Part shown: positions 436 to 23,156 of the stretch, in pieces
Layout: each line of letters opens with the position of its first letter
How positions within the stretch are numbered: the first letter of the stretch is position 1
DNA from: Cochliopodium minus
Lineage: Eukaryota > Discosea > Himatismenida > Cochliopodiidae
Direction: 5' to 3'
DNA length: 26,108 nucleotides
Assembly: GCA_024220525.1 (NCBI GenBank)
Contig: JAMYWO010000170.1
Span: forward strand, 4,191 to 30,298
Notes under the pieces: generated by a model
The model's database searches: none
What the model was told of the DNA's origin: nothing
Seen by the model: only the letters and a program-made list of their open reading frames with translations
Position numbers and translations under genes: made by a program

Positions 436-1540
436 ATGAAAATTAATTTCAACAGGCAAGAATTTATAAAGATAATATACTCATATATTAATTGAATTCT
501 ATTTCAAATGCATTCTACAGAATAATCATCGTACCTGGTAAAAAAAATTCACAAATTTTAAAAAATTTAATTGAATAAAATTTTATAGGAAATGGATGCA
601 CAAATGTAATATAAATTCCAAAAGATGATATATTCCAATTTAATTTTTATTTATGCTGAAATTCAAATATAGATAAAAAATGCAAATTGGTATTACTGGT
701 TATCATTAAAATTAAAAAAGCAATATCAAGATGTTCAAGTAATTTGTGAGACAATGCCAGATCCATACAAAGCTAAAGAAAAAAGTAAAGAAAAAAAATC
801 TAACAAAATAAATTTTAAATAATTTTTGAACAGTTTGTAAGACAAATTTTTTTCAAATAATTGATTCATATTTAAATGTAACGAACATTTATAAAAGGGA
901 TTCCCCATATTGTCGAAAAACTAGGATGTGATGGTATTTTATTTTCATTAGGAAATTTTAAGATAAAAGTTGATCTTTTAAAATCAAGAAAAAACAATTA
1001 TTATAGGACACAGGTAACAATTATAAAATTTTACTAATTTTTTTTAAAAAAAATAAAATAAAGCTCAGGTAACTTTTTTACAATATCTCATTTTGCAACT
1101 ATTATTTTTCATATTTAAAAAAAGGTGCGGAAGCAGCGATGAGACTCTGTGAAACGCACAAAGTATTCGGAATCGTATTAGTTTCAGCATGTTGGACTGA
1201 TTTAGGAATGAAAAGTGAAGTAAAAAAAAAAGCTTTGTATCTTACTTTGTTGATTATGTTTTACATTTTGCGCTTTTTTTTTTAATAGAGAGTATCGGGT
1301 TATTACTCTAGACCTTGGGAATGGCGAAAAATCGCAGAAAATTGTGAATTTATCGTTCAACTCCATTCTACTGATGATCCTTTCATTCCAATCTCTGAAG
1401 CTACCCATGTTAAAGACAATCTTCTAAAGTTTAAACCTAATGGCTTGGATTACCATCAATACAACGACCAAGGACATTTCATGACAGAAGAATCTGAACT
1501 CATTTTAAACATAATTACTAAAAAACTTTCTAATTATTAA
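436..1540 (+). CDS. RBBP9-type serine hydrolase (alpha/beta fold), ten exons
   Basis: Spliced product of 193 residues, close to human RBBP9 (186). Exons: 436-455, 521-537, 589-605, 673-784, 834-836, 898-951, 1007-1013, 1064-1068, 1125-1219, 1289-1540. Family landmarks in order: IIIVPGNG near the N-terminus, MPDPYKAKEKIWIP, nucleophile elbow GHSSGAEAAMR (Ser77), VLVSA, SGYYSRPWEW, STDDPF (acidic triad member D139/D140) and GHF (His173). The full Ser-Asp-His triad is therefore present. RBBP9 proteins are cytosolic serine hydrolases; the physiological substrate here is unknown. The start is the first ATG in phase and follows an A run. Intron 1 appears to be GC-AG. The intron after 951 lacks a GT donor; ending the exon at GT 934 instead would delete six residues of the strand before the nucleophile. 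Exon borders are inferred from homology. Confidence 0.88.
834..836 (+). other. 3-base micro-exon (TTT) in the RBBP9-like gene
   Basis: Flanked by ...GAACAG and GTAAGA. Including it gives AKEKIWIP, matching the AREsIWLP stretch of RBBP9, and makes the Trp codon by joining its last T to GG at 898. Skipping it removes a residue and the Trp. Confidence 0.75.
1007..1013 (+). other. 7-base micro-exon (GACACAG) in the RBBP9-like gene
   Basis: Between TTATAG and GTAACA. It supplies the rest of Gly, the His and two bases of the Ser codon in the GHSSG nucleophile motif. Confidence 0.8.
1064..1068 (+). other. 5-base micro-exon (CTCAG) in the RBBP9-like gene
   Basis: Between AATAAAG and GTAACT. It completes the catalytic Ser codon, gives the second Ser and the first base of the next Gly, so that GHSSGAE reads in one frame across three exons. 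Without it the downstream frame is lost. Confidence 0.8.
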
Positions 1541-1637: not shown

Positions 1638-3032
1638 ATGGAAAATCATTTTAACAATTCATTTGATTTTATATTCCATGGTAATTTTTTTAGATTCAAC
1701 ATCCCTTTTCTTTCATCCTTCCATCAATTATATTTTTTTTTTCCATATTTTTATTTATATTTAAGGATGTGGATCCAGTGGTGGTTCTTTTTATATCCCT
1801 TGTTATTTGAGAGAAAATGGGCCTTGCTCTTGTTGCAAAGAATATAGCCAAAATAAAGATAAAAATATAAGGTGAATAAAAAAATAATAAACACAATTTT
1901 GATCATATCATCATAAAATCTGATCATAATTGATAATATCAGATGATCAATGATATAATCCCAAATTGAAATGTGATACAACCAAATTTATTATTTATTC
2001 AACTTTATGTTAATTTCACATAATTTTCTTAATTTGAAAATAGAGGAAACCCTGGTGGAATAATTCTTTACAAAGAAAAAGTGATCGTAATAGATTGCGG
2101 AAAAACATTCATCGATAATTGGATCAATTGTGTCAGAAAACATAAATTTCTCAACAAAATAGATTCTGTTTTGGTAAAAGTTGTAAATTTAAAAGAAAAC
2201 TCTCCAAAACTAATTTTTCATAAGATTACACATTCACATGCAGACTCTGTTTATGGGTTAATAGATCTACCAGAATGTGCTAATAATAAAAACAAAGTGG
2301 ATGTACATATATCAAAAAGAGATTACAACATAATTAAAAAAACATATTTGTATTTTTTCTTTTTTTAAAAAAAAACTATTCTTCTAATAATTTTGAAACA
2401 ATAGACACCTTTTCGATAGTGAACCTGAAAAATTAGATAAATTAAATTTTGTCATATTTGAACCCAATAAACCTATTTTAATTCACGACTTAAAGTTTCA
2501 AACGTTCGATGTGGATCATGGTACACGAATTTTTATTTTTAATCACACAAAAGAAATAATATGATAAAAAAATCCTTATTTTTTAAAAAAGGACATAATT
2601 CAATATCTCTTGGATTTCAATTTGGAGAAATGGTTTATATATCTGATGTTAAATCGGTTTCTGTATAAAATATTTAAAAAACCCCCTCTTTTTTTTTTTT
2701 TACATACTAAATCTTGTATGAAACAGAAAGAAATAGAAGAATGGTTAACTTCACTTAATATAGAATATCTAGTAATTGATTGTGTTTCAGTGACTGCCCA
2801 AATAACATCTCATATGAATTTAAGGGAAACAACTGATTTTGTAAATACAATCAAACCTAAAAAAGCATTTCTCACTGGTATGGGTCATGGTTTTCTCTTC
2901 CCCTCTTTCGACATCAAGTTAAAACAAAAATACAATAACCAAAACACTCAATTTTTTATGCCTTATGATGGGTTTTTGATTCCAGATATACCTATCAAGA
3001 AAGATTATCTTTTCCTAAAGTCTAATTATTAA
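1638..3032 (+). CDS. Metallo-beta-lactamase-fold hydrolase (cyclic phosphodiesterase-like)
   Basis: Seven exons (1638-1680, 1766-1871, 2044-2173, 2225-2349, 2405-2520, 2592-2662, 2727-3032) give 298 residues. The product follows a eukaryotic family typified by fission yeast C777.06c: a GCGSSGG entry and a cysteine cluster (PCSCC), RGNPGG, VIVIDCGKTF, metal motif THSHADS (His96, His98, Asp100), FDVDHGHNS (His173), YISDV (Asp192) and TGMGHGF (His251). All expected metal ligands of this subgroup are visible. Related bacterial enzymes hydrolyse cyclic phosphates; the substrate here is unknown. The start ATG follows a long A run and opens the first exon in phase. The intron at 2174-2224 is 51 bases without an in-frame stop, so retention would insert 17 residues just before the metal motif; family alignment shows it is removed. 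The intron 1872-2043 is longer than most here. Confidence 0.88.
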
Positions 3033-3206: not shown

Positions 3207-4677
3207 ATGAATAATTATCCGACTCTTTGTTTGGATATTGGAGAATATGAATCCAAATTTGGTAATTTAATGAATTGTTAAATAATTAACTTTCAATTTT
3301 TAAATATAAAAGGATTTGGAGGAGAAGTGTAAATTTGATTTGGAAAAATACTTGTTTATTATTTACTTATTGTATTATAAAGTAATCCTGAATCAATTCC
3401 ATCAGTAATCGCAAGAGCAAGGTAATTTAATAATTTTAATGAAAATATCCAATAAAATTTATAAATAAAACAATAGATGTGGAATAAAGTAAAAATCAAT
3501 ACCAATTAACTTATCCATTCATTTCTTTTTGAATCATTGCAAATTATAAAACAAGAGGTATAAAAAAATTCAATTTTAAATTTCTTAATTAAAAATAAAT
3601 TCAAAAAAAAAGTAATGCTGAGAGATAGATTCAAAGAAACATATGTAGGAAATGAAGCAATAGCAAATGTTTCAATCAGAATCTTAAAAAGGCCAGTAGA
3701 AAACAGAAACGTGAGCAACTTTGATGATTGGGAGAAACTGATGGGAGAAATTATCAACGTGGAAACAAAAGCAAATCTGCAAGAAAGTGCTGTTTTATAT
3801 ACAGTAGGTCCCAATTCCTCGAAAGATACTCTTGAAAAAATAACGCAGATAATGTTCGAAACATTTACAGCTAAAAAGTTAGATCTTTCTTCTCAAAGTA
3901 CTTGTTCGATTTTGTGTTCGGGTATTACATCCTAAATTTTTGAAAAATAAAAATTCCAATTGTTTTACGTTAAAAGGAAAAACAACGGGAATTGTTGTAG
4001 ATTCTGGTTACAAGATGACTAATGCCACTAAAGTATTACATGGAGTTCAGGTTAAAGATGAAAATTTTGTTGATTTTCAAACGGCAATTGGTGGTTTACA
4101 TGTTGATGAACAATTTATCTCGAAATCAAGAGAAAAATATGAATTTAGAAGTTCCTCAGAAAAATTTATTGCAACAAAAATTGTAAATAGACATGGATTC
4201 GTTCAAACTACTCATGAAAATTATTTGAATGCAGTAGCACCTGAATTCACCTATAAATTACCAGATGGAACTGTTTTAAACTTTCAAAACGAAGCATATG
4301 AATGCAGTGAATTTTTGTTTAATAAATTAGATATAGGATTTGAATACTCACCAATTCAAAATATCATCAAAAATTGTGTTTCATCTATCAACAAAGAGAA
4401 CTTTCTAGAATTCACAAATAACATTTTTTTTTGTGGAGGAAATTCAATGTTGAAAGGATTTGAAGTGAGAATACAAAACGAGTTGAAAGAAATGTCTTCA
4501 AAAGACTATTGTTTAAAATTTCCGCCTCAAAGACAACATTCAGTTTGGATTGGTGCTTCGATTTATTCTCAGCTAAAAACTTTTTTGGAAAACTGCATTA
4601 CATCTGAAATTTACGAAGAAGAAGGACCTGAATCAATTCACAGAAACTTTAATAAAAAATTTTTAAATCACAAATAA
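3207..4677 (+). CDS. Divergent actin-related protein
   Basis: Seven exons (3207-3261, 3313-3328, 3383-3421, 3477-3488, 3556-3557, 3613-3921, 3977-4677) give 377 residues, the size of actin (375). The order of actin landmarks is kept: phosphate loop 1 (CLDIGEYESKFGFGGE), PSVIARAR, VMLRDRFKETYVGNEA aligned without gaps to the actin VM...YVGDEA segment, ITQIMFETF, phosphate loop 2 (GIVVDSG), LPDG, FCGGNSMLKGF and HSVWIGASI near the end. Loop residues differ from conventional actin (for example DIGEYESKFG where actin has DNGSGMCKAG), and the C-terminus extends past the usual CF ending. It does not fit Arp2 or Arp3 closely by eye, so I call it an orphan ARP. ATP binding is possible but weakened. 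Four of its exons are 2-39 bases long. The start follows an A run. Confidence 0.85.
3556..3557 (+). other. Possible 2-base micro-exon (AG) in the actin-related gene
   Basis: Preceded by ACAAG and followed by GTATAA. Adding AG between 3488 and 3613 restores frame and gives GIKVMLRD, aligned without gap to actin. The same mRNA would result from one long intron whose right end is shifted to AA|GTAA, since AAAGTAA occurs at both borders. Both models predict the same protein. Confidence 0.5.
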
Positions 4678-6050: not shown

Positions 6051-7923
6051 ATGTATGACAGTATTGATAAATTATATAATAGAAATATTCAACATGCCAG
6101 AGAAGGAGTAAATACAAAATTCGAAGATGAAGATCAAATGCAAGCACAAGATGAAATATTTGAAATGTTATTGGCAGCTGGTATTAAAAATTTATACAAT
6201 TTAAAATTTTATTATTCTCATATCAAATAAAGGTTACTTTAGAGCACGTATTAGTACATTACAACCATTTGATAAAATTTTGGGAGGATTAGCTTGGTGT
6301 ATTACATCATCCAATGTGGATGTTGATGTGGATGTGTTCTTCAGTGATGATGCACCATTGGGAGAAAAGATCGATGTGGGAGAAAGAATCTGTAAGGCAT
6401 TGGTACAGATGAGATGTCCACATACTTTATCATCACCCCAAATCAGAGGTTTAGACTTTCTAAAAATCTTTCCAGTGGTACAATGGCTGGTGAAAAAAGT
6501 ATATGAAGTGAGAGAAGAGACAGCAGAGTTGATCAGACTCTTTACTGAAAGTCAATTTGCAAAAGTATTCAGCCATCCTGAAGATATCACCTTCAAAGAG
6601 AAATTGCCAAAGGTGAGAGAGTATTATGGACAAGTGAATGATAATTTTAAGCCTAGGAGAAGATTCAAGAGAAGCGAAAATGAAAATACCTCTGATGAAT
6701 CCAAACTCGTCACCAATACTCTTTTGGAATATGGTCATCATACAAAAGAAAGCAAATCTGAACATAAAAATAACAAGAATAACAAAAAGAATGAAGGAGA
6801 GGATGATGAATTAGGTGAGAAATTCAAGAATGAATATGCTGCCTTTAATTCTTCTGGAAGTGTATCTGGTTCTTTGGTTGGATCCATGATCGGGTTAAGA
6901 TCAGAAGAGCTTTTGAAAAGTCAGAATGCTTATGAATTGCTTCGTTCGCAAGAATTGTCAAAGGGTGTATTCAATTCCAAGCAAATGGCAGAGGAACAAT
7001 ACAATAGACAAGTTGAATCAAAGAAGAGACAGATGTTGGCTTACAGGCAAACCTATGAAGATGTTAAACAGAAACATTCTGATATGTTCAATAAGCTCAA
7101 TGAATTACAAGGTGAATTGGATCAAAAGGTTGAGACAAATAGAAAGATTGAGGAGGCTATCCAGAAATTCAATGAGATTGAAAACTCTGAGAATGCCAAT
7201 GATATCAAGACTCTGAGAGGATTGGTTGCTTTAAATGAAAGTCTCAAGAAGCAACAAGAGGAATTCAAATTGAATTGTAAAAAGCAGCTTCAAGATTACA
7301 AGATCAAGATTGAGAATCTTCAAAAGGGTGAGAATGAACTCTCCGGTGAGGAAGGAGAAAGAATCAAGTTGATTGAAGAGACTTATAATAGAGATTCTGA
7401 AAAGTTGAAGCAGATCAAATCTTTGTTGGCAAAGAAAAACAGAACTATCCTTCTTTTGGAGAGAAAATTGGATGATATCCCTTCTCGTACTGAACTCACC
7501 CAATATCAAAGAGAATTTGTTGAATTGTTTGAGCAAGTTGCTGCTAAATTGGTAGAAACCAGACAATATTATAACACATACAATACCTTGGAAGATCAAA
7601 GAGTATTTTTGAACAAAGAACTCAGCATTTTGGATTCTATCAATGAGAAATATAATCTTGCTATGGCTTCCAAAACTAATAGAGAAAATCTTTTAAAGTC
7701 AATGCAACAGATTATCGAACAAGTAGAGAAGAATTCTGTCAAAACCAAGGAAAAGCTTGAGAATGAACAAAATACAAGGGATGTTCTCAAAAAGAAACAT
7801 GTTGATTTGATCGAAAAACAAGGTTATTATGTCAAATGTACCAAAGAATTCGAAACAGAATGTAGAAAGAATGTTATTCTCCAACAAAAATTGGAGGAAT
7901 CAAAGAACAAAACATCAAATTGA
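6051..7923 (+). CDS. CCDC93: CCDC93, Commander/CCC complex subunit
   Basis: Two exons (6051-6180, 6233-7923) give 606 residues, close to human CCDC93 (631). The N-terminal calponin-homology-like domain is very well kept: EMLLAAGYFRARI, PFDKILGGLAWCI, VDVDVFF, CPHTLSSPQIRGLDF and IFPVVQWLVKK all match the vertebrate protein closely. After a Lys/Asn-rich linker (about residues 190-220) come long coiled coils with conserved islands: GLVALNESLKKQ, IPSRTELTQYQREF, YNTYNTLEDQRVFL and AMASKTNRENLL. CCDC93 pairs with CCDC22 and COMMD proteins in the CCC complex, which works with retriever and WASH on endosomes to recycle membrane proteins. The start is the first ATG in the exon and follows an A-rich tract. 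The single 52-base intron breaks a glycine codon. The gene is complete and shows no frame damage. Confidence 0.96.
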
Positions 7924-10805: not shown

Positions 10806-13784
10806 ATGAAGGATATCTTTTTATCAACAGCTCAAAAAGAGAATCTATCCAAATGGAAATCAAAGAATGTAGATATCTCATTGTCTTCGAAAATATTGGG
10901 TTATCTTTGGGATCTCATGATAAAATTCATCCCAAGCGATATAGCACCCAATGTACTTTCATTCATGGGATTATTATGTAATTTGCATGCATTTTATCTG
11001 TGTAAGAAGAAGAAACAAAAAATTTTTAAACAAAATAGGGAAAATATAAGAACTTTTATTTGGGAGTTTGGATACATGGATACACTGTTCAAATATAAAA
11101 TTTTAAAATTTTAATTAGTACGAAGTGAAGATTATTTTGGAACAAATTGTTGGATATACTTTTAAAAACCAAATATATTTGATGAGAATGAAAAGAATTA
11201 TCAGCAAATAACATATCATTTTCAAAATAATAAAAGGAAATTTAAATTTGATCCTAACTTTATCAAAAAAAGATTTTTTTTATGAAAGAACGGAAATTTA
11301 AAATAAAATTCCGTTTAAATAAGAAATTTTTAAGAAACCCATAATAAAAAACCAAAGAAAACGAGATAGTTCTAAAGTTAAATAAATAAAAAAAAATTTT
11401 AAAAAAATAATAAAAAAAAATTTATTAAAAAAAAAGGTTATTTGTACATCGATGATCACCCAAAAGAAGTATCAATCACAGCGGTAGTACTAATGTCATT
11501 AAGTTACGCATTTGACTCACTTGACGGTAGACAAGCAAGAAAGATAAAGAACGAATCTCCACTAGGAGAATTGTTTGGCGACGCATGCATCAACATTGGT
11601 GTCATTTTCTCCATTTTGTCTTTGTGTTACATTATTGGCATTCGTGACATCATGACCCAGTGGTATTTTGGACAGACTGCTGCTTTGTTCATTGTTGCCA
11701 CTCACATTGAGGCTTTGGGAACCAAAATCAAATCTTTTGGGAGATTTACTGGTGAGATTTTTTTTTTCATTCATTTTTAGTTTATTATTTAAAATTTATT
11801 GATTTTTTTTCTTTTATTTTTTATTTTTTAATTATTTTATTTATTTTTTTATTTTATTTTATTTTTTATATATTTTATTTTATATTTTTTGTAATTTAAT
11901 TTTATTAAATGGTTTATTGTTTTTTTATTTTTTTATTATTGAAAATTTTTTTTTTATTATTTTATATTTTTTGAAAATTAAAATTTTTTATTTTATTGAT
12001 TTTATTTTATATTTTTTGAAAAACTTTTTTAATGAAAGGACCTGGTGAACCTTTTATGATCTATGCTTTTATTGTAATCACTAAAACCACTATTGGACTC
12101 GACTGGATTGTAAACAAATTTAATTTCACCTTAGTCCCAATGTTAGAGAGCATTTCTGGTGAGAAAAAAACTTTTTTTTTTAAAAAAAATCAATTTATTT
12201 TTGAAAAATTAAAATTTAAAAAAAATATTAAATCAATAAAAATAAAAATTATTAATTAAAAAAAATAATTATTTCAATAAAAATATCCAATTAAAATAAT
12301 TAAAAATTTTTTTAATATTTTTTTGGTTTTAGGTACAAAGGACTCTATAGTATTGTTGAGATTGATAAGCAAGGTTATTTATTACTCCACAGTGATTTTG
12401 GTGATCATTTCATTGATGTTCGTTCAGGATCATTCTGCAACCAAGAAAAACCTCATCTTTTGCTTTTTTTATCGAAACGTAATCCCCATTTTGTTGTCAT
12501 TGGGATGGATGAACATTTCCAAAATGGATCTCTCTGATATCATGTGCGATGGACTTTTTTTCTCCATTGTTTCTACTGATCTTGTTGTATCTAAAATGTC
12601 AGGTCAGAAATAAAAATAAATTAATCAAAATTTAATAAAAAATCAATTAAAAATAAATTTAAAAATAAATTTAAAAATAAATTTAAAAATAAATTTAATA
12701 AAAAATCAATTAAAAATGAATTGAAAATAAATTAAAAATAAATTGAAAATAAATTAAAAATAAATTTAAAAATAAATCTAAAAATAAATTAATAAAAAAT
12801 AATAAAGAAAATTTTTTATTTTATTTTATTTTAAAATCTTAAGAAATCTTTTAAAAAAATTTTTTTCTTTTTTTTTTTATTTAGGAAGAGATTTGCACCC
12901 TTGGATATCTTTGTTTGCGATGATAAGTATTTTCAACCACTTCTTCATTTTGGTGATCGTGGCCTTTTACTACGTTTTATTGTTTTGGGACGTGTGTACC
13001 TATTTGCATTTGCCAATGTTCACCACCTACATCAACGTCTACGTAGACGGAGGTAAAAAAAATAAAAAATAAAAAATAAAAAAAAAATAATAAAATTTTC
13101 TTACAATAAAATTTTATTCAAATGAAATAGTTTATGATATGTTACATTTTGGGCATCAAAAAGGTATTTCATTTGTTTTTATTTAATTACTGAATTTTGA
13201 TTTGTATTTAATCAATTTTTATAATTTTAATCATGATTTTTTAGATTTTAAAAATTTTAATTTATGTGTTAAAAATTTTTTAATATTCATTATTTTTTTT
13301 TCTTTTTAGCATTCCAAGCTGCTCTTCAATTTGGGTCGAGATTGATTGTCGGAGTTCTTTCCGATGAGAACGTAATGAGCTACAAAAGAAGACCCATCAT
13401 GTCTCTAAAAGAACGTGCAGATTCCGTCAGAGTATGTAAGGGTGTAGATCAAGTAATTGAAGACTCTCCTCTCATTTCAGACGAAAAATTTTTAAAAGGT
13501 AATCATTGTTAATTTTTATTTCTTGTTGTAATTTTTTTTATTTTTTTTTTTTTTTCATTTTTTATTTTTTACATTTTTTTTTTAAATTTAAAGACAACAA
13601 CATTCATGTTGTTGCACATAGTACTGAGTATGATACAAAAGATGATAGATATTATGTTGTCCCAAGGAGATTGGGAATGACTAGAGTTTTGCCCAGAACT
13701 GAGGGAATCTCCACCAGTGATCTCATCAAACGTGTTCACGAGTGGTACGAGGAGAACAAGAAAAATGGAAACAACTCTAAATAA
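10806..13784 (+). CDS. Fusion: CDP-alcohol phosphotransferase domain plus cytidylyltransferase
   Basis: Eight exons (10806-11001, 11437-11751, 12039-12158, 12333-12602, 12885-13052, 13131-13163, 13310-13498, 13594-13784) encode 493 residues. Residues 1-330 look like choline/ethanolamine phosphotransferase: an N-terminal KSKNVDISLSSKILGYLW segment, IAPNVLSFMGL, several membrane helices and the signature start DGRQAR (residues 95-100). The signature D-G-x2-A-R-x8-G-x3-D-x3-D is broken at its end: Gly113 and Ile117 replace the two conserved aspartates. Residues 345-493 are a CTP:phosphocholine/phosphoethanolamine cytidylyltransferase: NVYVDGGVYDMLHFGH (HxGH at 362-365), SDENVMSYKRRPIM, VDQVIED, VVAHSTEYD and RTEGISTSD (465-473). 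These two activities are consecutive steps of the Kennedy pathway. The join lies inside one exon (12885-13052), so it is not a misjoined neighbour. The first intron is 435 bases. The likely role is a membrane-bound cytidylyltransferase; transferase activity is doubtful. Confidence 0.88.
11002..11436 (+). other. Long first intron of the phosphotransferase-cytidylyltransferase gene
   Basis: 435 bases from GTAAGA to AAAAAG. The frame stays open for about 110 bases past the donor, but that translation has no family match and joining 11001 to 11437 aligns without a gap. Otherwise AT-rich with poly-A towards the acceptor. Confidence 0.55.
12640..12795 (+). repeat. Short-unit tandem repeat inside an intron
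   Basis: Four near-perfect copies of AAAAATAAATTT from about 12651 to 12698, then looser 11-12 base variants to about 12795. It lies within the intron 12603-12884 of the fusion gene. Confidence 0.8.
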
Positions 13785-14131: not shown

Positions 14132-16259
14132 ATGGAACCTGTAATTACAGGATATGAACTATATATTTTACATACTTGTATCTTTGTTTCATCTAGTTTG
14201 AGTGTTATTGGATGTTCGTTCATGATCTTCTACATACTGTTCATAATGATCAGATGGCAATTCTGTAAGAACAAAATAAAAATTTATAAAGAAATGAACA
14301 TGTCAACAAGGATCAAATTGTTTGATTATGGATCATTTATAAGTAGATATTTGGAAATGAAAATATATAAAATTTATATTTAAGAAAATTTGAATGTCCA
14401 AAATAAACAGATAGAATTACAAAATATCTCTTTGACAATAAATAATTATAAAGAAAATATCCTTTATCTATCCATCATAAAAATTCACCTTTTAATAAAT
14501 TATTTATAATAAATGCATCTTCAATTAAAGATTATTCTTTGATTATTTTTTATTTATTTTTTTTAAATTAGGCCTGACAAATAAACAAAGGATCAAAGAA
14601 AACAAACACACCTCAAGCCGAAAGTTCGAGTCGGAATTTCATCTAGCAGAAAAAAAGAATTTGAACTCCTTCCACTCCATCCCCAAACCCATTTGGATAC
14701 TACATTGGATAGGAGAACTTCTCGTCTTGACTTTAACTATAATCAACCTTTTATCTTCTATATATGTAAAAATAAATAAAAATAAAATAAAAAATAAAAC
14801 AAAAAATAAAATAAAATTAATTTTTTTTTAAATATAATTTTTAATATAGTACATAAGTGCTTTGAAATATGTAAGATTTTTTTTTAATCCATTTTTTATT
14901 TTTTATTTTTTTTTCTTTATTTTTTCATTTTTTTATTATTTTTTACTGACAGTACAGCGAACACAAATCTTGTAACTTTATCTTGTCAGTAATGGGAACT
15001 ACCTTTGAGCCTGCATCAGTGGTGATTGTATGTGAAATATCTGTGATTGTAATTTTTTTAACTATTTACTTAGTTTTTTTGAAAATATTTTTCATTTTTA
15101 TTTTATTTTTGTTTTATTTTATATTTTTTTTATTTTTTTTTTTTTTGATAAAAATTAATTTTTTTTAAAATTTTTATTTTATTTTATTTATTTTTATTTT
15201 TATTTATTTTTATTTATTTTTATTTATTTTTATTTTTTTTTGATTATTATTTTTAGGTTTTCATCCTTTCGAGAAAATCGGAGAAAACACAAACAAGAAA
15301 AGGAATCAAGTCAACGCTGACTATCTATTTCGTGTTGTGTGTTGTCTTCTCAGTGATGATCCCCTTCTCCTACTCTTTTTTCACCATCTATTTTCGTTTT
15401 TACAGTAAAGAAAATAAAAAAAATAAATAAAATTTTAGTTTAATTAAATAAAAAATAACAAAAATAAAAAATATTTAAAAATTTGGAAGAAAAAAAAATT
15501 TGATTAATAAATCAAAATTTATATTTTATAAAAATCAAAATAAAAATGAAAATTTTTTTAAAAAAACCAGGAAAGAACGATTGGTGCAAATTGTTCTCGA
15601 AATCAGATGAGGCATTCTATTATTATTATATCCCTGTTCTCATTGCTGTTACTTTTAATGTAGTTATGTTGTTTGCCATTCATCAAGTAAACAAGCGACT
15701 TAACAGAAACAGTCTCTCTCTTGTTTGGTGGATTCCAAGGTAAAAAATAAAAAATGAAAAATCTTTGGAAAATAAAAAATATTTAAAAATAAAAAATTTT
15801 AATTGGAAAATAAAATATTTTAAATAAATTAAATCAAAAAAAAAAATAATGAATAAAAAAATATTTAAGGTGGAATTATTTTAAAAAATTTATTTAGATT
15901 GGAAAATAAAAAAAGTAAAAAGTTATATTATCAAATTGATAATAAATTATTAGAATAATAATAATATAAAAAATTTTTTTTCAAAAAGTTTTTGTTTGGT
16001 ATGGATTATGCCCATCATAAACTCAATCATCCAAAAAGTAAGTGGGAAAGCATATTTTCCTCTGTTGGTCATCGACTCTATATGTAATCCCTCACAAGGC
16101 TTCATCAACGCCATTCTCTTTTCTTACATTTTGTTGAGCAAGAGGAAGAGTTCTGAGGAGGATCTTTTACTTCTTGATAAGGAACTCTCTTTTCAAAAGT
16201 ATGTTTGTTATTTATTTGGTAACAGGTTTGAGTGGTTCATTGAACAAGATAAAAAATAA
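14132..16259 (+). CDS. Seven-TM cAMP-receptor-like GPCR
   Basis: Seven exons (14132-14264, 14572-14765, 14850-14870, 14953-15048, 15257-15404, 15571-15739, 15989-16259) give 343 residues. Seven hydrophobic helices are visible, roughly: TM1 after MEPVITGYELY, TM2 from IWILHWIGELLV, TM3 from NFILSVMGTTFEP, TM4 from TIYFVLCVVFSV, TM5 from YYIPVLIAVTFN, TM6 from LVWIMPIINSII and TM7 from LLVIDSICNPSQGF. The NDWC in the second extracellular loop, WIPSFCLVW in TM6 and NPSQGFINAI in TM7 fit the Dictyostelium cAMP-receptor/Crl family. Ligand unknown; coupling to heterotrimeric G proteins at the plasma membrane is expected. The first intracellular loop is long and basic and the C-terminal tail is short. 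Exon 4 could also end at GT 15028; the longer form gives a full-length TM3. A 27-base in-frame stretch 16200-16226 has GT-AG ends and may be a tiny intron. The first intron is 307 bases. Confidence 0.83.
14265..14571 (+). other. Long first intron of the GPCR gene
   Basis: 307 bases from GTAAGA to AAATTAG. The upstream frame stays open to about 14381 without resembling the family. No other feature is seen; joining 14264 to 14572 keeps phase. Confidence 0.55.
15176..15236 (+). repeat. AT-only tandem repeat in a GPCR intron
   Basis: About three copies of ATTTATTTTT plus shorter ATTTT variants, within the intron 15049-15256. Confidence 0.7.
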
Positions 16260-16412
16260 GAAGAATTATAAAGAAAAATGTAAATAAATAAATTGAAGCT
16301 TTTTTTTTTGTTTATTCGTGGAATATTTTTTGATTCTCAATTACTCCAATTTTTTTAATCAATCCTTTTTTTCAAGAATTAAAAATAAAATTAATTAAAA
16401 AAAAAAAAAAAA

Positions 16413-17757
16413 ATGAAAAAGAAAATTAGCAGAGGATTTAATTCTCAACATCTTTTGATTTATTGTTGTAAAAAAAAATTTATATTTGTTTCCATTTATT
16501 TTTTCTTAACAATTATCAAAAAAGATAATGGAGATTTATTTGGATTTGGAAGTAACAAATATGGACAATTAGGAATTGGAAAGGAAATAAAATTTGCAGA
16601 AAAACCAATCTTGATAAGGAATGATGAAAACATAAAATCAATTTGTTTGGGATCTCATTTTTCATTTATCCTCCACAAAAACGGAGATTTATTTTCTTTT
16701 GGTTATAATTTTGGACAACTAGGAATTGGAAACACAAATATTCAATATGAACCAGTTTTGGTGATGAATGATCCAACAATAAAAATGATCTCTTGTGGAT
16801 TTTCTCATACAATGATTTATAAGGAAAATGGAGATATATTTGTATTTGGTTTTAATGAATATGGACAATTAGGAATTGGAAATGAACAAATTAAAATACA
16901 AGATAAGCCAATTTTATTGATGAATGATTTAACAATAAAAAAGATAGTATTGGGAGGAAATCATTCAATAATTTACAAAGAAAATGGAGATTTGTTTGTG
17001 TTTGGTAAAAATGAATATGGACAACTTGGTTTAGGAGATACAGAAAATAGACACACTCCTACTCTTTTGTTTCATGATAAAGATATCAAAGAAATATATT
17101 GTGGAGATAATAATAGTATTTATTTGAAAAATAATGATGAAATATTTTTTTTTGGAAATTGGTATTTTTAATTTGATTCTATTTTTTTGTTATTTTCTTT
17201 TTAACCATTTTTTGAAAATTAATTAGCTTAGGTGAAACTTTGATTTTGAAAGACTATCACGAAGACAAGTTGGTTCCTACTTTTCTTCAAAAAATAGAAA
17301 ACATTAAAACAATGAGAACTGCTTTCAAACATACTATTGTATTAAAAATAATGGGGAATTGATTGCTTTTGGATCAAATAATGAAAATCAAATTAGTAAC
17401 AATGATGGTGGAAAAGAATTTTCCACTCCTGAAACAATTTTAAAAGATGAAAATATTGAAAATATTTTGTGTTCTTCATTTTCTACTTTCATTCTTTACA
17501 AAAATGGAAAAATAGTTCTCAATGGAACCCTTGAATTCAAGATTTTTAACAACGAATTGGTGATGGAAAATTCTTCAATCATGTTTATTGGATCAGATGA
17601 TGTCAAAATATGGTCTCCTCAAACACATAAATACTTTTCGGAAGATACAAAACAATTCGTAAAAGAGTTTGTTCTTGTTTTGAAATATTTTCAAAAGAAA
17701 TATGGTTTCAAACTTCCAAAATTTCTTCTCTTTCTCATTCTTGAACAATCCATTTGA
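16413..17757 (+). CDS. RCC1-repeat (beta-propeller) protein with one frame break
   Basis: Three exons: 16413-16467, 16525-17161, 17227-17757. The exon 2 repeats carry the RCC1 pattern (NGDLFGFGSNKYGQLGIG and relatives) at least four times; further degenerate repeats follow and the C-terminus is a helical segment (WSPQTHKYF, KLPKFLLFLIL). Such proteins form seven-bladed propellers; besides GTP-exchange on Ran they serve many scaffold roles, and this one is not specifically an RCC1 orthologue. Splicing the first intron (57 bases, no in-frame stop) joins HLLIYCY to NGDLF, which fits a repeat start; without splicing a hydrophobic insert would appear. In exon 3 the frame ending HTIVLK and the frame with NNGELIAFGSNNENQ are offset by one base near 17343-17351, next to an A5 run. 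The total exon length is one base short of a multiple of three. This may be a sequencing error or a real lesion. Confidence 0.82.
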
Positions 17758-18560
17758 AAAATTAAATTAAAAGTGTTATTATAATTTTAAATAAACAAAT
17801 TAGCTCTTGAAAACTTTCATTTGCAAGATACAAAATTTGTTTTCATTCAAGTTTGTGGGTTGTTAAAATGTAAACCTTTATTTTTTTTTACTAATATAAT
17901 TCCATAAAAACGCATAAGGAAAAATAATTTGCATAATTATGCGAATCACCATACACTGTATGTATTATCATTTGTAAATTAGAAGTTATATCTCCAATAT
18001 AGAGATGAATGATTTTTTTTATTGTGTTATATTAAAAAAGAAAAAAAAATTTCCCCTTATGAACAACATCATTCAAGCAGTGAGATATCAAATTTTCAGT
18101 TAAAAAATTGATCGGTTAATCTTTATCGAAGTTTTTATTGAAAGAAAAAATCCATGAGCAGTTGTACTATTATGGCAAACAATTATTGGTTTTTTATTAT
18201 TTTTCTCAATATATAATATATATAGTTATTTTTTGGAATATAGTCTCATAGAACACCAGATATTCTCATAAACAAAGGAAAATATCTAGAAAAGATGAGA
18301 TTCAAAAATATTGCAGATCATGATGATTGTCCACCAAATAGATAGTTGGTGAAAATCAGTAAATCTGCTTTTAAAAAAATAATTTCAATTTTTTTTTATT
18401 TTTTATTTTTTTAAATTGTTTAATTATTTTTTTTTTATTTTAAATATAAAATATCAAAAATCATTATTTTCACAAATATTGATTTTTTCAAATAATAATT
18501 ACTTTTAATCATTATTATTTCAATACATCCAAAGAAAAATCTTTAACTTTGTTTGAATCT
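17758..18560. other. Unassigned region after the RCC1-like gene
   Basis: About 800 AT-rich bases. A perfect 12-base palindrome, GCATAATTATGC, sits at 17931-17942, overlapping a CGCATAA/TTATGCG inverted pair (17911-17917 and 17937-17943). A short forward frame beginning MRFKNIADHDDCPPN (from 18295) ends in TAG and could be a first exon of the possible gene downstream, but I cannot join it. Nothing else is supported. Confidence 0.4.
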
Positions 18561-18874
18561 TGTTGTGCAAAGACAAACCTAATTGTGCTGTGCTGTTAAT
18601 GGTGGGAGACTTCAAACGAAGCAATGTGTTGAAAAAATAATTTTTTTTTCTTTTTTTAAACTTTTTTGTTTTTCATTCCAGATGAATTAAAATTTGTTTT
18701 CAAATCTTGGAAATTTTAATCCTTGGTTTTGTTTTATTTACTTTTTTGTTTTTTATTTTAAAAGTTGGTGCTTCTATTTGGAGAGGTTATGTACTCTTGG
18801 TGAGCATTTGTATTATCTTGCACTTCTTTTCCATTGGTGCTCCTTATCTTACTTCAAGAAAGCTTGATCTCTGA
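18561..18874 (+). CDS. Possible exons of an unidentified membrane protein
   Basis: Three forward stretches look coding by composition but I could not join them in one frame. Around 18561-18639: LLCKDKPNCAVLL...VGDFKRSN. Around 18681-18717, after an AG at 18680-18681: DELKFVFKSWKF. From 18765, after TTTTAAAAG, to a TGA at 18872-18874: GASIWRGYVLLV followed by a hydrophobic helix and ending in YLTSRKLDL. The last would be a C-terminal transmembrane segment with a short tail. I do not recognise the family. It could be a degraded gene, a gene with undetected micro-exons, or partly noncoding. Confidence 0.35.
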
Positions 18875-19348
18875 AATCAAAAATTTAATTAAAAAAATAA
18901 AAAATAGAAAAAAATATTTCATTTATTCCAGAAAGGTATTTTTTATTTATTGGTTTCGAAAGAAATGAAAGAAATAATTGTAAGAATGATTGTGGAAGAT
19001 CACAAAAAAAAAATTTCTTTGGACATGTATTGAAGGGTTTGTTGATTGCTGTATTAAAATTAAAGTGTTTATGGAGGATTTTTCATTAAAAAATCTTCTT
19101 GAAAACAAAGCTCCTCACATAAGTGAAAAAGATTAATCAGAACATCAATCGAAAAAGAAAATAACTAAAGCAAAAAGTCCCATGAAAATATCTTTTTGGA
19201 AAAGGATAGAATAATTGAAGAGAAGGATTTGACATCCAAAAATTACTCCAATAAATAGAAATTTCAAAATCAAAAATAAAAAATAAATTGAAAAAAAATC
19301 CTATCCAAAACAAAAAAATATTTTTTTATTTTCAAAGTTTTTATTTTT
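18875..19348. other. Unassigned region with short open stretches
   Basis: Between the possible membrane protein and the reverse-strand gene. Open stretches of 35-50 codons occur in all three forward frames around 18940-19135, for example TCIEGFVDCCIKIKVF and, in another frame, HVLKGLLIAVLKLK, each ending at stops. No family match, no consistent splice model. It may be a decayed gene or a 3' region. Confidence 0.3.
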
Positions 19349-20225
19349 TCAACAATTTGCGGGTCTGATATAATTAGGAGGGATTGTTGGACACTTTTCA
19401 CGCATGTGGGGAAATGGAACAGCAGTGTTCCATCCGACCATATCCATTCTATATTCTCCCATCACTTAATTAAAAAATTTTAAATTAAATTACTAAAAAA
19501 AAAAACCAACAATCAAATAAAAATAAAAATAACCTTGGCAATATGGTAAGTCAGGATCAGCAATTTGACATTCTTTTGGTCTCACAAAACTTGAGTTGAA
19601 AATTTTAAGACTGTAAGCATCGAAGTTTGTAAATTCTAAAAAAAAAAATGAAAAAAAAAATAAAGGCAAAAAAATTAAAAAAAATTACCAGTCCTTTTAT
19701 TTAATTAAAAAAAATAAATTTTAAAAAAAATTAAAATCAAAAAAAAAAGTTTTTTTACGCTTGAATTTGGTTGGAGATATTTCCAAATAATCCTCCTGCC
19801 TTTAATAAAATATTATTTTTGAAATGAACTAACTGTTTTTAATTTTGGCAAAAAAAGAAAGTCACCTTCCACACTAAAATTTTTTTTTTGTTGAAAAATT
19901 TAATTAATTTTTTGAAATTAAAATTAAAAAATTTTTATTTTACTGTGTGTAACAAAAACATCACAGACCATACTTGGACCAGTTCTCCCATCAGAAAAAG
20001 TGTAATTCTGATTTTAAAGACATTTTAAATTTATTTATATTTATTTTTTATTTATTTTCATTTATTTTTTATTTATTTATTTTTTTTAAAATCCTTTTAA
20101 AATTTTTTTTTGTAAAGTAATTTTTACCCAATTGTCTTGTTCTGGGATGGTGTAGAGTTCTGCCAAAGAAATACCTCTTCTTGTGGCCTCTGCATAACTT
20201 TGTCTGATGGTCAAGTTTGAAGTTC
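19349..20225 (-). CDS. 3' part of a conserved-looking cysteine-bearing protein, 5' missing
   Basis: Six further exons follow a missing 5' part, in transcript order: 20225-20128, 20007-19944, 19873-19866, 19799-19759, 19693-19689, 19635-19534, then the last exon 19464-19349. Two are only 8 and 5 bases. The spliced 144-residue C-terminal part runs TSNLTIRQSYAEAT, RRGISLAELYTIPEQD, MVCDVFVTHMWKAGGLFG, ATEFTNFDAYSLKIF, PYCQVMGEYRM and CPTIPPNYIRPANC. Several NxS/T sites and spaced cysteines suggest a lumenal or secreted protein. I do not know a name. The block with Cys followed by a helix and AGG recalls the cysteine region of permuted NlpC/P60 (YiiX-like) papain-fold hydrolases, but this is only a guess. 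The 5' end is lost at the octanucleotide repeat and ambiguous base near 20354. Confidence 0.72.
19689..19693 (-). other. 5-base micro-exon (GACTG)
   Basis: Reverse strand, between ATAAAAG and GTAATT. It joins NQIQA (phase 2) to EFTNFDAY, completing an Ala codon, adding Thr and starting Glu. Skipping it shifts the frame. Confidence 0.72.
19866..19873 (-). other. 8-base micro-exon (TGTGGAAG)
   Basis: Reverse strand, between ATTTTAG and GTGACT. It joins VFVTH (phase 1) to AGGLFG through Met-Trp-Lys and keeps the frame. Confidence 0.72.
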
Positions 20226-22728: not shown

Positions 22729-23156
22729 AATTATTTTACCAAAATAAAATTTTTTTTTTTCAACTTTACTGAGCAAACAGCAAACAGCAAAAACTCTAAT
22801 CGAAATCCAAAAACAAAAAAATTTTAAAGAAAAAGAAAAATACTTTCTAAAATAGATTGAAAAACAAAAAAAAATAAAAAATAATAAAAATTATGTTAAA
22901 ATGATTTTCTTTATAAAAATGAAATAACAAAATGATGAAAAAAGTTACAACTATGTGGCTTCGCGTTTAGTCTCCCAAATTACCATACTAACAACTCAAT
23001 GATGTTTGACTTTGCAGATCGATAACGTGTTGCAGTTAATTCATCAAGATATGATTTAAACCAAAAGTTTTTTAATAACTTTATATTACAATATTTAATA
23101 AACAATTTAAATTTAGTTTTGAAATTAAAAAAAATATAGTTAATTAATAAAAAAAA
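22729..23156. other. Intergenic region between the two coiled-coil genes
   Basis: 428 bases. Directly after the stop, TTATTTT (22731-22737) and AAAATAA (22741-22747) can pair over a 3-base loop. The stretch 22930-23060 is less AT-rich (it includes GGCTTCGCG) but shows no tRNA or snoRNA features and no supported gene. Confidence 0.5.

Follow-up and report, generated by a model that had tools for sequence, protein, structure and literature searches.

A predicted 5-nt micro-exon completes the nucleophile serine codon of an RBBP9-type hydrolase gene in a protist

Micro-exons only a few nucleotides long have been described from plant, fungal and human genes. Arabidopsis APC11 contains a 1-nt exon, for which sequential intron removal was argued by Guo and Liu (PMC4674806). 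A catalogue of plant micro-exons covers lengths of 1-15 nt, and RNA mapping without junction annotation lost reads at a 1-nt exon (PMC8831610). Human MPC1 has a constitutive 4-nt exon. When this exon was cut to zero in minigenes, both introns were still removed separately; the introns of this gene are long, and its authors explain the splicing by exon definition through the introns on either side (PMC9929638). In fungi, Fusarium CYP621A has a 1-nt exon inside its PKG motif, which was first inferred from the phase mismatch of the flanking exons and has transcript support, and a Phanerochaete P450 carries an 8-nt exon within AGHETT (PMC12940212). Here we describe a further case, the predicted 5-nt exon CTCAG of a protist hydrolase gene. 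No RBBP9 micro-exon was found among the matches listed by our literature searches on micro-exons, protists and RBBP9 splicing, which covered titles and abstract openings.

The window analysed in this work is a stretch of 26,108 nucleotides (26 kb) of Cochliopodium minus DNA, which is eukaryotic in character and has an A+T content of 74%. The features discussed below are listed in Table 1. One plus-strand gene with ten predicted exons encodes a predicted 193-residue hydrolase of RBBP9 type. In a phmmer search against the PDB, human RBBP9 matched query residues 7-186 (184 bits, E about 2e-53), and the nearly full-length alignment showed 50% identity. The Pfam family PF06821 (Ser_hydrolase) scored 36.9 bits, above its cut-off of 22, and PF02230 and PF06342 were likewise above their own cut-offs. 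The DDPF and GHF motifs, which we take to carry the Asp and His of the human catalytic triad, are conserved between the two proteins. The GxSxG nucleophile motif is also found, and query S77 is aligned to S75 of human RBBP9, which is described as the reactive serine (PMC9839743). In all, GHSSGA, IW-P, STDDPF and GHF are common to the query and human RBBP9 (PDB 2qs9, 7oex and 9fcr; PF06821), while the query has a six-residue insertion near the C-terminus. The human enzyme was set beside the ten-exon structure with its tiny exons as a protein only. Judged from its predicted protein, this is an ordinary gene for an alpha/beta serine hydrolase of RBBP9 type.

Genome and viral contigs were also scanned for short peptide patterns, a method in which absence is weak evidence. 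The protein query found no relatives of the hydrolase in the genome contigs, and the viral contigs gave no match to the hydrolase or to the minus-strand protein described below. When two aligned sequences were used as query, one remote bacterial match was obtained in the genome contigs (L001, 29% over residues 8-70).

Table 1. Predicted features of the 26-kb window, with coordinates counted from its first base.
Feature	Position	Strand	Length	Content	Basis or remark
RBBP9-type hydrolase gene	436-1540	+		ten predicted exons	
Exon 1	436-455	+	20 nt	ATG, MKINFN + AG	frame and ATG only, outside guide; ab initio model agrees
Probable GC-AG intron	456-520	+	65 nt	gcaaga...acag, donor CAG/gcaaga	after first coding exon
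Exon 2	521-537	+	17 nt	IIIVPG	3' edge from guided alignment; 5' edge from reading exons between introns, guide starts inside
Exon 3	589-605	+	17 nt	NGCTN	RBBP9-guided alignment
Exon 4	673-784	+	112 nt	MPDP within	RBBP9-guided alignment; shortened to 64 nt ab initio
Exon 5, candidate micro-exon	834-836	+	3 nt	TTT	RBBP9-guided alignment
Exon 6	898-933	+	36 nt	IPHIVEKLGCD	RBBP9-guided alignment
Exon 7	989-1013	+	25 nt	EKTIIIGH + AG of catalytic Ser codon	guided alignment, identity with human protein
Intron 7	1014-1063	+	50 nt	gtaaca...aaataaag, tactaat inside	
Exon 8, predicted micro-exon	1064-1068	+	5 nt	CTCAG	path enumeration, shuffles, guided alignment
Intron 8	1069-1124	+	56 nt	gtaact...aaaaaaag	
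Exon 9	1125-1219	+	95 nt	GAEAAMR...DLGMKSE	RBBP9-guided alignment
Exon 10	1289-1540	+	252 nt	STDDPF, GHF, TAA stop	guide to 1516; end is the stop codon
Metallo-beta-lactamase-fold gene	1638-3032	+		PF12706	introns 64-172 nt, homology-free model
Divergent actin-family gene	3207-4677	+		PF00022	best 60 of 153 PDB matches are actins
Candidate micro-exon	3556-3557	+	2 nt	AG	actin-family gene; only open in-frame path of 7
CCDC93-like gene	6205-7923	+		PF09762 + PF21673	very long open exon
Predicted two-domain protein	10806-13784	+		PF01066 CDP-alcohol phosphotransferase + PF01467 cytidylyltransferase	
RCC1-repeat gene	16395-17171	+		PF00415 + PF25390	long open exon
Gene with candidate 5- and 8-nt exons	19361-20225	-			
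Candidate micro-exon	19689-19693	-	5 nt	GACTG	only open in-frame path of 11
Possible micro-exon, ambiguous	19866-19873	-	8 nt	TGTGGAAG	gene 19361-20225; ab initio choice
Weak 5S rRNA match	22942-23062	-			39.6 bits, gathering score 38

The exon path of the hydrolase gene was checked by our own protein-to-DNA spliced alignment, which permits exons of any length and was guided by the human RBBP9 segment alone. Intron penalties of -4, -8, -12 and -16 were employed, and all four gave one and the same exon structure between the 3' edge of exon 2 and the interior of exon 10. The nine introns of this model are 49-69 nt long, and the same range covers all 15 introns of the hydrolase and actin-family models, so that a merged intron of 111 nt in place of introns 7 and 8 would be long by the standard of both genes. 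Longer introns occur elsewhere in the window (up to 447 nt in plus-strand ab initio models, of which some are doubtful), and intron length alone thus does not exclude the 111-nt intron. A homology-free gene finder, whose splice matrix already included the GC-AG intron, was run on both strands and served only to find candidates. Its output contained plausible plus-strand genes, and also zero-length exons and implausible long minus-strand chains; its model at 14132-19473 is probably a false fusion of adjacent genes. Its model of the hydrolase gene kept CTCAG but preferred a 7-nt exon, left out TTT and cut exon 4 short.

Exons 7, 8 and 9 together spell GHSSGAE, with the catalytic Ser codon split as AG/C. 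The first base of CTCAG ends the nucleophile Ser codon, TCA encodes the next Ser, and the final G opens the Gly codon. The edges of this exon are canonical AG and GT sites (aaag before, gtaact after). Splice paths from GGACAC to GCGGAAGC were enumerated with GT-AG or GC-AG introns, up to three per path and each at least 20 nt long. Ten paths were obtained, three of them in frame, and the only open one uses CTCAG and reads GHSSGAEAAM. As a predicted exon, CTCAG is not longer than 15 nt, has canonical sites and is needed for the frame. The comparison of the residues it encodes covered human RBBP9 and, more remotely, YdeN. The first-pass annotation had proposed this 5-nt exon, an active-site Ser codon divided between exons and a 50-base intron ahead of CTCAG, and all three were borne out.

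The chance of such a path was estimated by dinucleotide shuffling of the 111-nt composite intron with its first 6 and last 3 bases fixed. Any open frame-restoring micro-exon of up to 15 nt, flanked by two introns of 38 nt or more, appeared in 862 of 20,000 shuffles (about 4%), and any bridge of 1-6 residues from GH to GAEAAMR appeared in 560. The motif GHSxG was found in 163 of the 20,000 and the exact GHSSG in only 7. Frame rescue alone is mildly unlikely, and the exact motif is the convincing part. Consistently, the guided alignment returned CTCAG at all four intron penalties, and its score was reduced by 60.6 when CTCAG was blocked. A branch-point scan gave no clear consensus; intron 8 is without YTRAY and has NTAAY only in its own first five bases. 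On the path enumeration and the shuffles, CTCAG is very probably a real 5-nt micro-exon, as predicted from DNA and homology, and the predicted spliced sequence across it is GGACACAGCTCAGGTGCGG.

The first-pass annotation had also drawn GACACAG (1007-1013) as a 7-nt exon, preceded by an intron ending at 1006, which would put a 7-nt and a 5-nt micro-exon next to each other in the motif. This candidate was rejected: the seven bases form the 3' tail of the 25-nt exon 7 (AAAAAACAATTATTATAGGACACAG). The residues EKTIIIGHS of exon 7 are identical in human RBBP9, and the exon started at 989 at all four intron penalties. Blocking the acceptor for 989 reduced the best guided score from 383.6 to 323.0 (a drop of 60.6). 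The next-best path was identical for this block and for the block of CTCAG; it uses GACACAG as a 7-nt exon and loses the catalytic motif. The path as originally drawn scores at most 323.0. The acceptor after 1006 is of similar strength to that after 988 (4.61 versus 4.40 in a small matrix), is in frame and was picked by the homology-free gene finder, which makes the earlier error understandable. However, a 7-nt exon would delete EKTIII, the segment identical in human RBBP9 that leads into the nucleophile motif, and it was rejected by the guided alignment. We therefore find the pair of consecutive micro-exons hardly credible, although the 7-nt form could occur as a minor isoform. The path with the 25-nt exon predicts AAAAAACAATTATTATA before GGACACAG in the spliced sequence.

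The candidate exon TTT is inserted as AAA A/TTT/GG ATT and gives K-I-W-I. The query K-I-W-I-P is aligned to human S-I-W-L-P without gaps and with a common Trp, and YdeN (1uxo) has a Trp in the same alignment column. The path lacking TTT gives K-R-I-P instead of K-I-W-I-P; it is likewise open and in frame and was the ab initio choice. TTT was kept at intron penalties from -4 to -16 in the guided alignment, and blocking it reduced the score by 16.6. Of 20,000 shuffles of this site, 179 gave IW and 466 gave W after any residue. On the basis of these few comparison proteins, TTT is a probable 3-nt micro-exon, with AAATTTGGATTCCC as the predicted spliced sequence. It might also be a regulated element, whose in-frame inclusion or omission would swap I-W and R and tune the enzyme with the frame intact. 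The two open in-frame paths fit this idea, as do the two donors of TTT, which are the weakest of 15. But these donor scores come from a tiny self-trained set, and the Trp of human RBBP9 suggests that inclusion is the norm, so we regard a regulated TTT as unlikely. Were any exon of this gene switched, TTT, which keeps the frame and has the two weakest donors, would be a better candidate than CTCAG.

An on/off switch at CTCAG had been suggested by the first-pass annotation, on the ground that skipping either of its two micro-exons would abolish the enzyme and shift the frame. In such a regulated switch, CTCAG would be skipped in some growth stages and the truncated, Ser-less product would leave the enzyme off. 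The predicted consequence is correct for CTCAG: when it is skipped, GHSSGAE is changed to GHRCGSSDETL followed by a stop, the nucleophile is removed, and the first stop is at codon 86 of the shifted frame. The frame is likewise shifted when exon 7 is skipped, with the first stop at codon 76, but the exon lost in this case is one of 25 nt. Among protists, Creolimax has been the subject of an analysis of differential exon skipping (PMC4739763). In the hydrolase gene, single skips of the eight internal exons gave an early stop in seven, the exception being the 3-nt TTT, and retention of each intron singly gave an early stop in nine of nine. Any exon with a length not divisible by three is expected to break the frame when it is lost. 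Because early stops are general to the exons and introns of this gene, they are not evidence of regulation, and CTCAG is not a special control point. In addition, the donors flanking CTCAG (CAG/gtaaca and CAG/gtaact) have the two top scores of 15 in a splice-site matrix trained on the same 15 introns it scored. Regulated exons more usually have weak splice sites, so the strong donors favour constitutive use. Other candidate ultra-small exons nearby also suggest a habit of the genome rather than a switch at CTCAG. Taken together, the switch appears very unlikely, and this part of the earlier proposal was not sustained. Even less probable is a decayed gene or an assembly error, in which CTCAG would be a chance rescue of a pseudogene or of a misassembled exon junction. 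Frame-rescuing micro-exons of some kind did arise in the 862 shuffles counted above, but the exact GHSSG arose in 7 only, the remainder of the predicted protein has an open frame and shares 50% identity with human RBBP9, and the missing Ser-Ser is beyond what a single-base error could supply.

We consider it likely that this RBBP9-type hydrolase gene has nine short introns, a genuine 5-nt exon CTCAG and a probable 3-nt exon TTT, and that it is spliced constitutively, intron by intron. For CTCAG itself, we infer that constitutive use and a stepwise order of splicing are most likely. An intron size of 49-69 nt suits intron definition, and 2-5 nt of exon would hardly hold both splice-site complexes together, so the introns would be removed in succession. 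Those on either side of CTCAG would be recognised singly, each across the intron. Removal of the first would fuse CTCAG to its larger neighbour, and the second would then be spliced normally, in every transcript. Such an arrangement may have originated from two intron insertions at CAG sites five bases apart (CACAG^CTCAG^GTG), and the intron-less ancestral form would read contiguous CACAGCTCAGGTG. Each donor beside CTCAG follows CAG (CAG/gtaac), which is consistent with two insertions at nearby AG sites.

Candidate ultra-small exons were also seen in two neighbouring genes. The actin-family gene has seven predicted exons, among them exons of 12, 16 and probably 2 nt. In the actin-guided alignment the 2-nt exon AG was kept at penalties of -4 and -8 and dropped at -12, and it is thus a candidate only. 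The minus-strand protein had no Pfam match. For its TGTGGAAG site, 6 of 39 paths were open and in frame, and three of these contain TGTGGAAG. AG, GACTG and TGTGGAAG were picked after inspection, and the chance figures are uncorrected for this searching: at the AG site, 5,000 shuffles gave the same residues 9 times, a bridge of 1-6 residues to VMLRD 87 times and a looser bridge 360 times, and any open rescue appeared in 757 of 20,000, while any equivalent rescue of GACTG appeared in 119 of 20,000. With the hydrolase gene included, three genes of the 26-kb window contain candidates, and one may tentatively imagine a lineage in which exons of 2-8 nt are commonplace, with dense intron insertion at neighbouring AG sites as their origin, obligate stepwise and near-recursive splicing, conserved catalytic motifs routinely stitched together from a few bases, and genomes misannotated in large part; we hold this broader view to be somewhat less likely than not.

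The long exon of the CCDC93-like gene contrasts with the tiny exons of the genes upstream. The predicted protein with PF01066 and PF01467 may combine two Kennedy-pathway steps in one fusion. The best PDB match of its cytidylyltransferase part is ethanolamine-phosphate cytidylyltransferase, and the two domains are joined via a 33-nt exon read by eye. A literature search requiring all four terms found no paper on an ethanolaminephosphotransferase-cytidylyltransferase fusion. No tRNA was found in the 26-kb window.

If these predictions are confirmed, the nucleophile codon of an enzyme is finished by a five-base exon, ultra-small exons cluster in a protist genome, and the locus would be a good natural system for studying how the spliceosome copes when an exon is too small to be recognised by exon definition. 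There is also a practical warning: the homology-free model differs from the homology-guided model of the same gene, so gene finders can mis-call such genes, and CTCAG could easily be missed by annotation.

Exons as small as CTCAG have precedents, as outlined above; less usual are its place in a nucleophile codon and how many candidates a single stretch of 26 kb contains. With APC11, the plant catalogue and MPC1, CTCAG shares a frame-essential exon of a few bases between introns; it differs in being predicted from DNA and homology alone, in its introns of about 50-60 nt and in belonging to a protist. The exon definition credited by the MPC1 authors stands against the intron definition favoured here (PMC9929638). 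The fungal P450 micro-exons lie inside conserved functional motifs (PMC12940212), as CTCAG does; unlike the transcript-supported CYP621A exon, CTCAG is a predicted exon and would finish the nucleophile codon itself. Recursive splicing and ratchet points (PMC8605326, PMC6110457) resemble CTCAG in an abutting acceptor and donor and in possible two-step removal, whereas the candidates described here would retain 2-5 bases in the predicted mRNA and have short composite introns.
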